Assembly (NCBI GenBank): GCA_016935075.1
Contig: JAFGRP010000155.1
Coordinates: 1-35,322 of the forward strand
Length of the DNA: 35,322 bases
Direction: 5' to 3'
DNA from: Deltaproteobacteria bacterium
Lineage (GTDB): Bacteria > Desulfobacterota > Syntrophia > Syntrophales > UBA5619
How positions within the stretch are numbered: position 1 is the stretch's first letter; every line of letters begins with the position of its first letter. This document shows, piece after piece, positions 24,682-29,563 of the stretch. The notes beneath the pieces are model-generated. The model ran no database searches, was not told the origin of the DNA, and worked only from the letters and a program-made list of their open reading frames with translations. Position numbers and translations under genes: made by a program.

Positions 24682-24758
24682 CGCGGGGTGGAGCAGTCCG
24701 GTAGCTCGTTGGGCTCATAACCCAAAGGTCAGAGGTTCGAATCCTCTCCCCGCTACCA
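24682..24758 (+). tRNA. Initiator tRNA-fMet (anticodon CAT)
   Basis: A complete 77-base cloverleaf with encoded CCA. Anticodon CAT is at 24716-24718, in a stem closed by three G-C pairs (GGG/CCC), and the first base pair of the acceptor is a C-U mismatch; both are hallmarks of initiator tRNAs. The T arm has AGAGG-TTCGAAT-CCTCT. A strong terminator follows 10 bases later. The 3' half is repeated at 29520-29563 (see there). Confidence 0.95.
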
Positions 24759-24767
24759 AAGAATTAC

Positions 24768-24805
24768 AAGGGGTTACGATTGAAATCGTAACCCCTTTTC
24801 TTTTT
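24768..24805 (+). terminator. Rho-independent terminator after tRNA-fMet
   Basis: A perfect 13-bp stem (24768-24780 with 24785-24797, AAGGGGTTACGAT) around loop TGAA is followed by TTTTCTTTTT. It may also serve the MFS gene that converges from the other side. Confidence 0.88.
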
Positions 24806-24888
24806 CGGAATATTTATTTCCGACCCTATTGCCAATCTCAAGCAAAACGGTTGGGGAACAGCATGGCCTGTGGTAGAAACATGCAGGA

Positions 24889-26175
24889 TTAATCTGCCTG
24901 TCTCTGAATGGTCTCCGGAATATGGGCAGTTTTGAGGAACTGAATCAAAACCGTCACGACCATAAGAACGGCAAGGTTGATCTGCCAAGCGAATGTGTAC
25001 GATCCCGTAGCGTCATATATTATCCCGCCGAGGATGGGACCAAGGCTGCCTCCGAGACCTATCGCGAAAAAAGCAATGAGCCCGTATGATGTTCCGGAAA
25101 TATCCCTTCCAAACCGGTCCATCATCAAAATGGGGAGCATTGGACTTATTGAACCATAGCCAAAGCCGAACAGGCACGCATACAGGTAAAATAATTCAAT
25201 CGAATGGAAAAACAACAGGATAATCATGGCGACGGTCATGCATGCAAAACCGAGGCAGGCCGAATGCTTGGCATCGCCGATCTTATCGCTCAGCCAGCCG
25301 AAGAAGAATCGACCGGCAATGCTCGCCATGCCGATGATACCAAGCGAGGAAGCCGCGGCGATGCGATTAATTCCGTATCCCTCTGCGTAGGCGACCTGGT
25401 GCACTAATACGGTCATTGCCGTCATTGTAACGAAGCCGAAACAAACCGCGATGATCCAGAATCGCGAATCCGTCAGAAGAAGACGCGTTGTCTGTCTGTA
25501 GGAACGCGTGTACCCGTCGGAACTTTTCTCCGGCTTAGCGGGCAACGTCGCCGTTCCGTCCGGCAACAGGCCGTATTCCTCGGGACGGGTTCTCCCCATG
25601 AAGAACTGAGACATGGCGGTGCATAACACAAAGGTCGCGATTCCTAAAATAATGAATCCCGCTTTCCAATCGAAGAACTTGACGATGAGGCCGGCCAGAG
25701 GCGTAATGGCCATGGTGCCGACGCCGATGCCGATTGACGTAATCCCGATCGCGATGCCCCGTTTCTGGATGAACCATTTTCCGACAGAGGAGACGCAGAC
25801 AGCGCTGCCAAAGAAAGAAGCCCCGAGGCCGTATATGACCCCGTAAACCATGTAGAGTTGCAGCGGAGTGGAAATAAAAGGAGTCAGGATAAATCCGAAT
25901 GCAGCGATGGCGGAACCGGCCATCATGATCCAACGGGGTGCAAAACGATCGAGAAGACGCCCTGAGAGAATGCCGCCAATCCCATAGAATAGTAATGCCA
26001 ATGACATGGCGAAGGAAACGATGGAGCGCGGCCAGCCCAGATCTTCACACATGGGCTTGAGGAAAACGCCGAAACTGTATCGGGTGCCGTAATTGATGCC
26101 GATGGTAATGAAAGCTGCCGCCACCACGTACCAGCCCCAGAAGATCTTCCGGGGCGCCTGTCTCTCCACTTCCAT
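24889..26175 (-). CDS. MFS transporter, monocarboxylate/oxalate-formate antiporter-like
   Basis: Inner-membrane carrier with about 12 TM segments, starting at KIFWGWYVVAAAFITIGINYG, which is typical of the MCT/OFA branch of the major facilitator superfamily. The cytoplasmic loop 2-3 motif is SGRLLDRFAPRWIMM, and the mirror motif in the second half is FFGWLSDKIGDAKH. A polar loop separates the two halves (RPEEYGLLPDGTATLPAKPEKSS in parts). Organic acids are likely substrates; the exact one is unknown. The frame is open to an ATG at 26217, but that codon would lie between the -10 box and the transcription start, so the ATG at 26175 (428 aa) is preferred. First gene inside the putative island. 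Confidence 0.88.
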   Translation of the reverse strand: MEVERQAPRKIFWGWYVVAAAFITIGINYGTRYSFGVFLKPMCEDLGWPRSIVSFAMSLALLFYGIGGILSGRLLDRFAPRWIMMAGSAIAAFGFILTPFISTPLQLYMVYGVIYGLGASFFGSAVCVSSVGKWFIQKRGIAIGITSIGIGVGTMAITPLAGLIVKFFDWKAGFIILGIATFVLCTAMSQFFMGRTRPEEYGLLPDGTATLPAKPEKSSDGYTRSYRQTTRLLLTDSRFWIIAVCFGFVTMTAMTVLVHQVAYAEGYGINRIAAASSLGIIGMASIAGRFFFGWLSDKIGDAKHSACLGFACMTVAMIILLFFHSIELFYLYACLFGFGYGSISPMLPILMMDRFGRDISGTSYGLIAFFAIGLGGSLGPILGGIIYDATGSYTFAWQINLAVLMVVTVLIQFLKTAHIPETIQRQAD

Positions 26176-26219
26176 GAACCATTCCCCACAACCGTCAGAC
26201 ACACTACTTTTATCCATAT

Positions 26220-26248
26220 ATCATACCATAGGAGATTGATTTTGGCAA
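26220..26248 (-). promoter_or_regulatory. Candidate sigma-70 promoter of the MFS gene
   Basis: On the minus strand TTGCCA (26248-26243), a 17-base spacer and TATGAT (26225-26220). Transcription would start near 26213, giving a leader of about 38 bases to the ATG at 26175. Confidence 0.55.
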
Positions 26249-27848: not shown

Positions 27849-28012
27849 AGAAAGACGGACGACGGCTGTTCACAGCCCGTCATACGCCTCGGTCAATAGA
27901 AAATGGGGTCGTTATCGGTAGACGATCCCGGCTTATGATGCTGAGAATATAAAATGGCGGCTGCCGGCGAAGCGCCCATATGATTTGTACCTAATAACAG
28001 AGGGGGTTTACG

Positions 28013-28513
28013 ATGAAAGATGTGGACTACATGCACGTTGCTGAGGATAGCATCACCAAGATCAACGAGGGCGCTTTCTTAACCGTTAAATCCGGTCATT
28101 CACTGAACACCATGACCATCGGTTGGGCAACCTTCGGCATTGTCTGGAGAAAACCGATCATAATGGTGGCAATACGGTCAAGCCGGCACACCTTAGGTAT
28201 CATCGAGTCAGCCAAGGATTTTACCGTTACGGTCCCCGCGGGAAACATGCGAAAAGAAACCGACTATTGCGGAACAGAATCAGGTCGGAACGTGGACAAA
28301 TTTAAGATGTGTAATCTGAAAACAACCGACGGCCGCCATGTGGCTTCACCCATTATTAAAACCCGGGGGCGTCATTACGAGTGCAAAATCATCTACAAGT
28401 CCGCCATGAACCCGGCTTATTTTGACAAGAATTATGATTCGTCCATTTATCCCAAAAAGGATTACCACACCCTCTATTTTGGTGAAATACTGGCCTGCTA
28501 CGAAACCGACTGA
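28013..28513 (+). CDS. Flavin reductase-like domain protein (FMN-binding split barrel)
   Basis: 166-aa protein of the flavin-reductase-like group (PF01613 type). INEGAFLTVKSGHSLNTMTIGWATFGIVWRKPIIMVAIRSSRHT in pieces shows the usual N..TI.W...g..w.kPi..v.ir.sR.T pattern, and later FTVTVPAGNMRKETDYCGTESGRNVDKF agrees with the family. The group includes NAD(P)H:flavin oxidoreductases and FMN-binding proteins of unknown role, frequent in anaerobes. A G-rich ribosome-binding site (AGAGGGGG) precedes the ATG. It ends 157 bases before the alpha/beta hydrolase frame. Inside the putative island. Confidence 0.82.
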   Translation: MKDVDYMHVAEDSITKINEGAFLTVKSGHSLNTMTIGWATFGIVWRKPIIMVAIRSSRHTLGIIESAKDFTVTVPAGNMRKETDYCGTESGRNVDKFKMCNLKTTDGRHVASPIIKTRGRHYECKIIYKSAMNPAYFDKNYDSSIYPKKDYHTLYFGEILACYETD

Positions 28514-28721
28514 TGTTCAAAAGGCCACTCCCGCACGCCTTCCTCTTTTGACATGTCCAAGAGGAAGTTGTAGCATCCAAAATATCATATACGAGGGCAG
28601 GTTATTACAGAGGGTAGCCTTTAACGGGCAGGACGGACCATGATCATGCCATACACCTGGAAGCCGTCCGTTGGTTTTCCAAGACCTCAAAAAATCCATC
28701 CTTATCGACAAGGAGGTGAAC

Positions 28722-29516
28722 ATGCCAATCGCTGATGTAAACGGGATAAAGCTCCATTATCGTTTTGACGGGCCTGAAAAAGGAGATGTTATCATGTTTT
28801 CAAACTCTCTGGCTTCGGACCTTACGATGTGGGATTTTCAGATACCTCGATTATCGGAAGCGGGTTACAGGATCTTACGCTATGACAGCCGGGGGCATGG
28901 GAGATCGTCGGTACCCCCCGGCCCCTATAATATGGAAACCCTCACCTCTGATGTCGTGGCGCTGATGGATGATCTTGGCTTGAATCAGGCCCATTTCTGC
29001 GGTCTTTCCCTGGGCGGAATGGTTGGCCAGATGCTGGGCGCCTTGCATGGAAAGAGGCTCCGCTCTTTGATCCTTTGCGATACTTCATCTTATATGGCGC
29101 AGCGGGAAATATGGGATGAACGCATCGCGTTGGCCAGAAGGGTTGGGATGGAAGGACTGGCCGATGCAACAATAGACCGATGGTTCACCAAAACCGGCCA
29201 AGAGAAGCTCAAGGTTGAAATTGAACATATTAGAGAAGTCATTCTCGGGACTTCGGTGGAAGGATATTGCGGTAATGGACGTGCCATTCACGCCATGGAT
29301 CTGCGTGAAATCATAAAAGGGATTTCTGTCAGGACTCTTATCGTGGTTGGGGAACAGGATCAGGGAACGCCCGTATCGGCGGCGGAGTTCATCCACCGGC
29401 AAATCGGATCATCGGTATTGAAAGTAATCCCCAATGCTGCACATTTCGTGAATGTGGAACAGGCGGATATCTTCAACGCCGTCCTGTTGGAATTTTTGTC
29501 CGGCAGATTGAAATGA
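28722..29516 (+). CDS. Alpha/beta hydrolase, 3-oxoadipate enol-lactonase-like
   Basis: 264-aa hydrolase. The start MPIADVNGIKLHYRFDGPE, the oxyanion region SNSLASDLTMWDFQIP, the RYDSRGHGRS strand and nucleophile elbow GLSLGG (Ser96) are those of the PcaD-like branch. Asp213 (GEQDQGTPV) and His241 (NAAHFVN) complete the triad. PcaD opens 3-oxoadipate enol-lactone in aromatic degradation, but no other pca gene is near, so the substrate is open. AGGAGGTG stands 5 bases before the ATG. The stop lies 3 bases before the tRNA-fMet fragment, at the right end of the putative island. Confidence 0.85.
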   Translation: MPIADVNGIKLHYRFDGPEKGDVIMFSNSLASDLTMWDFQIPRLSEAGYRILRYDSRGHGRSSVPPGPYNMETLTSDVVALMDDLGLNQAHFCGLSLGGMVGQMLGALHGKRLRSLILCDTSSYMAQREIWDERIALARRVGMEGLADATIDRWFTKTGQEKLKVEIEHIREVILGTSVEGYCGNGRAIHAMDLREIIKGISVRTLIVVGEQDQGTPVSAAEFIHRQIGSSVLKVIPNAAHFVNVEQADIFNAVLLEFLSGRLK

Positions 29517-29519
29517 GGT

Positions 29520-29563
29520 TCATGACCCAAAGGTCAGAGGTTCGAATCCTCTTTACGCTGCCG
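29520..29563 (+). repeat. 3' half of tRNA-fMet (candidate attR)
   Basis: Direct repeat of 24715-24758: anticodon loop, T arm and 3' end, 38 of 44 positions equal. Mismatches cluster in the acceptor strand (TTACGCTGCC instead of CCCCGCTACC), so it cannot pair with a tRNA 5' end. The sequence before it is hydrolase coding sequence, so it is not a tRNA gene. Confidence 0.8.

Follow-up and report, generated by a model that had tools for sequence, protein, structure and literature searches.

A tRNA-fMet gene and its displaced, degraded 3' half in a Syntrophales draft genome: a probable remnant of integrative elements without an integrase

Introduction

Genomic islands residing in tRNA genes are bounded by an intact tRNA gene at one end and by a displaced 3' fragment of the same gene, in the same orientation, at the other. 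As set out in the relevant portion of the Islander paper (PMC4383910), such an island is required to possess an integrase open reading frame (ORF), and 2083 islands are reported there with the crossover at the anticodon loop. Here we describe a stretch of 35,322 nucleotides (nt) from a deltaproteobacterium of the order Syntrophales, hereafter the window, in which an intact initiator tRNA gene (tRNA-fMet) is followed, five genes and 4.8 kb further on, by a degraded copy of its own 3' half. The locus agrees with the Islander islands in the intact tRNA and the same-orientation fragment at its ends, in a length above 2 kb and in the crossover at the anticodon loop, whereas it differs in having no integrase and in the damage to its fragment; its architecture is that of a tRNA-gene island in the sense defined in that portion of the paper, minus the integrase. 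We regard the stretch as probably what is left, in degraded form, of one or several integrative elements in the 3' half of tRNA-fMet, and an integrase-less remnant at a tRNA-fMet hotspot is a known and ordinary kind of genome scar.

The window is part of contig C239 of the draft genome G000 (2.87 Mb, 265 contigs, completeness 90.7%, contamination 7.9%). Relatives are coded in the same manner, and the genus comparison covers 11 genomes, G000 plus ten others; the drafts of the relatives are fragmented and gene adjacency may be hidden by contig breaks. A counterpart for the insertion site is metV of Escherichia coli, an initiator tRNA gene. The island PAI-metV of E. coli CFT073 lies in metV (PMC2907695); it is like the window in this choice of site and unlike the window in being a large island with functions of its own.

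Results and Discussion

The whole window has a single tRNA according to both ARAGORN and Rfam, tRNA-Met(CAT), which is listed in Table 1 with the other features. Using the 77-nt tRNA as query against its whole own genome, the downstream copy was recovered with an E value of 1.3e-9. An ungapped alignment pairs 24712-24760 with 29517-29565 (86% over 49 nt) and shows that the copy comprises tRNA positions 31 to 77 in the orientation of the intact gene, the 5' half being missing. This alignment passes the CCA end with the last positions mutated, whereas the BLAST match alone ends at position 66. The first-pass annotation had described an intact initiator tRNA and a same-orientation 3' half with 28 identical bases and no 5' half, and the tRNA predictions, the alignment and the own-genome search all confirm this pair; only the beginning of the copy, drawn at 29520 or 3 bases past the stop of the last enclosed gene, moves in the extended alignment to 29517, right after the stop at 29516. 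As the anticodon loop of the copy reads TTCATGA in place of CTCATAA and its acceptor strand is mutated as well, the copy cannot be a working gene. It sits between the hydrolase stop and the DUF1846 start at 29628 and overlaps no conserved protein domain, and the interval from tRNA to copy of 4758 bases (24759-29516) lies within the island range of 2-200 kb. At 29500-29563 the end of the hydrolase gene can pair with the mutated acceptor strand of the copy (CGGCAG/CTGCCG; z -2.88, 2 of 200 shuffles as good).

Table 1: Features of the tRNA-fMet locus and its flanks, in window coordinates.
Feature	Position	Strand	Evidence or reading
Response regulator with cyclase domain (P0007), host flank	23565..24560	+	conserved upstream neighbour of tRNA-fMet
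tRNA-fMet, tRNA-Met(CAT), intact	24682..24758	+	ARAGORN and Rfam (Rfam 24682-24755); read as rebuilt left end (attL)
Terminator hairpin right after tRNA	24759..24805	+	fold z -5.44, 0 of 200 shuffles as good
MFS transporter	24889..26217	-	PF07690 2.2e-51; best relative 67% in G003
Thioredoxin-like protein, CPFS replacing CxxC	26369..26695	+	PF00085 6.7e-9; best relative 58% in G005
SPFH / Band 7 protein	26982..27848	+	PF01145 4.7e-27; 86% in G030 (another family), 78-79% in genus
Flavin reductase-like protein	28013..28513	+	PF01613 1.3e-14
Alpha/beta hydrolase	28722..29516	+	PF00561 1.6e-22; 90% in G008
Degraded tRNA-fMet 3'-half copy	29517..29563	+	28-nt identical core; read as right end (attR) or internal junction
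DUF1846 gene, right flank	29628..31142	+	PF08903 1.6e-163
Lipase-like, glycerol kinase, deaminase and peptidase genes (named by eye), right flank	31306..35289	-	same order in G008 contig C84, 87-94% identical

An origin of this arrangement by insertion is supported because integrase-mediated insertion characteristically leaves an intact tRNA and a displaced 3' fragment, and because integrases are found at tRNA-fMet in relatives. We infer the insertion, the loss of the integrase and the sequence of these events as follows. A tyrosine integrase would have recombined the attachment site of an element (attP) with the chromosomal tRNA-fMet, attP being a terminator-bearing copy of the tRNA part that extends from roughly the anticodon loop to the CCA end. 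This recombination would have rebuilt the intact tRNA on the left and placed the displaced 3' half on the right, and the integrase gene, probably together with most of the element, would have been lost later while the right copy decayed. Since the 3'-half copy is degraded, loss of the integrase seems to us likelier than mobilisation in trans.

To take up the relatives first, a PF00589 match lies beside tRNA-fMet in two of the 14 genomes searched (G018 and G012), and by translated search an integrase or a piece of one is found there in five of the 16 relatives compared, two of the 16 having themselves supplied query integrases. In G018 (locus L235) an intact integrase of 429 amino acids (aa) stops 5 nt from tRNA-fMet, with an ortholog of the cyclase gene on the other side of the tRNA. 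A C-terminal integrase piece faces the tRNA in G012, an open frame of 418 codons ends 31 nt from it in G036, and a 66-residue remnant and a 25-residue tail are left in G009 and G011, respectively. The G018 insertion shares with the window the tRNA gene, the upstream gene and the first 18 nt after the tRNA, whereas its intact integrase and its perfect 11-nt-spaced repeat are missing or unclear in the window. With these five relatives, and with metV listed among the most frequently targeted tRNA genes of E. coli in a review (PMC7545054), the initiator tRNA can no longer be called an uncommon target, as had been done at first.

Four genomes (G007, G018, G036 and G039) out of the 41 searched with the tRNA contain detached tRNA-fMet 3' halves that match at 98-100% and begin at position 30 or 33, and in G039 an integrase ORF lies beside the half. 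Next to these halves, the outer 79 nt of G007 and G018, which belong to two genera, agree at 68 of 79 aligned positions, whereas the other five pairs reach 41-50 of 85-90; a likeness of this kind is to be expected of one element family. Downstream of tRNA-fMet copies and halves, nine of 31 sequences carry a direct repeat of spacing 11 with 8 or 9 of 9 positions matching (0 to 2 sequences at the other spacings from 6 to 20); these nine are not independent, as several share an element and one, in G038, is an A-rich run. We read this repeat as putative arm sites of the integrase. Further matches to the tRNA were seen in G014 (92%, positions 25-77, at a contig start) and G035 (88%, positions 20-77). 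G000 itself has a second tRNA-fMet, 91% identical, at contig positions 3399-3475 (locus L041, G000:C107), which is followed by the same kind of terminator and then by a clear 11-nt-spaced direct repeat.

Hairpins similar to the one right after the intact tRNA are seen by eye 3' of most tRNA-fMet copies and 3' halves in the relatives. A conserved terminator next to the intact tRNA might seem to speak against any insertion, but this idea was abandoned: in G009, G011 and G018, which represent three genera, the repeat-bearing DNA behind the terminator is shared along with the terminator itself, as judged by eye. The hairpin first annotated near 29583 could not be substantiated, 29564-29620 being indistinguishable from shuffles (z -0.55). 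Compared with tRNA-fMet terminators, the DNA after the fragment obtains a summed score that is reached by 20 of 500 shuffles for the window and by 8 of 500 for G009, which is only suggestive of homology.

The upstream side of tRNA-fMet is conserved within the genus and the downstream side is not. Seven of the ten other members have an ortholog of P0007 (82-88%), and in six of these tRNA-fMet follows it directly; the contig of the seventh, G003, ends before the tRNA position. Behind the tRNA the DNA is different in each of the five members in which it can be read, namely the window, G001 with a subtilase-like gene, G004 with HicAB-like genes (both named by eye), G009 with the integrase remnant and G010 with a pyruvate kinase (Pfam), while the contigs of G002 and G007 end at most 10 nt from tRNA-fMet. 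An ancestral synteny of the five enclosed genes with the tRNA is ruled out by the different genes found there in the other members whose contigs continue.

For the five enclosed genes Pfam agrees with the identities assigned by the first-pass annotation. The flavin reductase-like protein has relatives of 83% in G079 (another family), of 81% in G003 and G007 within the genus, and of 86% over 56 residues in G008. Taking genes of the neighbourhood as yardsticks for the genus (DUF1846 82-93%, the cyclase gene 82-88%, three right-flank genes 89-94% in G008, the lipase 75-87%), only the MFS transporter and the thioredoxin-like protein appear clearly low by identity alone. Relatives were searched in 100 genomes per gene for MFS, SPFH, flavin reductase and hydrolase and in 21 genomes for thioredoxin, and strong matches were read by eye from 43% (MFS), 53% (SPFH), 60% (flavin reductase) and 44% (hydrolase) upwards. 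Among the matches listed, those to the four genes lie on separate contigs or at least 190 kb apart, and two of them share a contig only in G054 and G094, with more than 190 kb between them (read by eye in fragmented drafts). The proposal that the five genes came in as one cargo is therefore not borne out, and a conserved five-gene cassette is not supported by the positions of the matches in relatives; judged from these comparisons, the genes are probably of mixed origin and were probably gathered in several events. Against separate origins speaks a set in G055 (C75, 124-4624), where genes for a flavin reductase (68%), for an MFS protein (30%) and for an alpha/beta hydrolase (31%) lie on one strand within 4.6 kb; the gene kinds are similar, the relatives mostly distant.

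At least the hydrolase has an integrase in its vicinity in a close relative. In G008 the hydrolase DNA is 89% identical to the window from 28711 to 29507, and a tyrosine integrase of 392 aa (PF00589 4.5e-29) lies about 3 kb away. This integrase adjoins a sequence interpreted here as the 3' half of a tRNA-Gly, next to a rimP-like gene, where ARAGORN calls no tRNA. A recent plasmid or phage origin is rejected for the island, which has no plasmid match and a single phage match over 147 bp of the SPFH gene (70%), and whose hydrolase has no relative in viral contigs. A recent five-gene element that is mobilised in trans and still mobile is highly improbable. G000 does contain other integrases, with four matches on other contigs, but the right copy carries mutations in both anticodon loop and acceptor strand, no relative has all five genes side by side among the listed matches, and the same near-absence of plasmid and phage matches applies.

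The reading as an integrase-derived remnant has to be weighed against a number of results. Between tRNA and copy no recognisable integrase was found by Pfam or by translated searches, as had been noted at first, and Pfam finds none on contig C239; moreover, translated searches of the island with four integrase sequences from relatives yielded nothing convincing as a relic, the best being an 18-residue match with an E value of 0.01. Twelve of the 14 genomes have no PF00589 match beside tRNA-fMet, and in 11 of the 16 relatives the translated search found no integrase there. In the window only 5 of 9 positions match at spacing 11, giving the repeat no support of its own, and no relative holds the five genes together among the matches listed. 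An empty site, with tRNA-fMet directly before DUF1846, was seen in none of the five genus genomes with DUF1846, where contigs end in G008 and the two loci are on separate contigs in G009. Finally, the right-hand neighbour of DUF1846 is a lipase in G000 and G008 and a TrmFO-like gene in G009, and in G007 (locus L036, G007:C19) an intact tRNA-Leu(TAA) at 2676-2763 ends 61 nt before DUF1846. The changing right neighbours and the tRNA-Leu are not explained by a single insertion.

The right end itself recurs in a second species. In G009, whose DUF1846 is 91% identical, DUF1846 is preceded at a distance of 60 nt by a degraded tRNA-fMet 3' fragment (3 mismatches in 27), and on the far side of this fragment a prenyltransferase-like gene takes the place of the hydrolase. 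The junction of fragment and DUF1846 is common to G000 and G009, and the adjoining genes are different. In G009 tRNA-fMet and DUF1846 lie on different contigs, and the tRNA gene reads as two ends around two unknown bases. G008 has DUF1846, lipase, glycerol kinase, deaminase and peptidase ordered as in the window, its contig ending inside DUF1846. Among 112 DUF1846 loci, each having 150 nt or more of upstream DNA (some genomes, G009 included, are counted twice), only those of G000, G009 and G007 have a tRNA or a fragment like tRNA-fMet no more than 400 nt away. The closest named relatives of DUF1846 include drafts of Deltaproteobacteria and Smithellaceae at 79-81%.

Because DUF1846 has no fixed neighbours and is preceded by tRNA-Leu in one relative, the 3'-half copy may be a junction inside an array. 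The copy would then be an internal junction (attM) of a tRNA-fMet array, the 4.8 kb one unit of it, and DUF1846, perhaps with more genes, would belong to another unit that ends past the window. We regard this as a possible but less likely reading. It would agree with the patchy distribution of DUF1846, which is present in five of the 11 genus genomes and in 52 of 100 relatives at E <= 0.001, with the change of its neighbours between lipase, TrmFO-like gene and tRNA-Leu, and with the gene after the lipase, which differs across the genus; however, no further tRNA-fMet fragment follows the copy within the window, and by eye no integrase is seen in the ORF list between copy and window end. After the lipase in G010 (locus L243, G010:C85), where G000 and G008 have DUF1846, an ORF resembles by eye the N-terminal part of a tyrosine integrase.

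It is unlikely that the copy arose by an ordinary segmental duplication or rearrangement between tRNA loci without any integrase. Gene order in the genus is fluid, and in G007 DUF1846 stands behind the intact tRNA-Leu with intervening DNA that aligns with the DNA before DUF1846 in the window, both of which fit such an event, but the copy begins at the anticodon stem like the detached halves of four other genomes, and relatives have integrases beside tRNA-fMet. In a further and rather improbable variant, what moves would be DUF1846 itself plus a leader of about 60 nt, re-joined repeatedly to tRNA 3' ends by integrase-type recombination. The start codon of DUF1846 lies 60-64 nt past a tRNA 3' end in three species of this genus, two of them having the 3' half of tRNA-fMet there and the third a complete tRNA-Leu, and the other flanks of these junctions differ where they are readable. 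The remnant of one or more integrative elements is still the explanation that we favour. From the first-pass proposal the integrase origin is retained, on account of the polarity and extent of the repeat and the integrases at the same tRNA in relatives, and the single cargo and the uncommon target are given up.

Apart from this locus, the window contains a 32-nt sequence twice, at 2575-2606 and 2638-2669, the copies being 91% identical with a spacing of 63 nt. The sequence has the arms CCTCCCCC and GGGGGAGGGG and resembles a repeated hairpin.

Conclusion

In summary, a degraded 3' half of tRNA-fMet lies 4.8 kb behind the intact gene. Read as the probable remnant of a tRNA island that has lost its integrase, the locus is a clear case of a kind that island finders depending on an integrase discard. 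Furthermore, tRNA-fMet is a recurrent insertion site across this order of mostly uncultured bacteria, where two or more kinds of integrase target it, namely the type of G018 and the related pair in G012 and G036.

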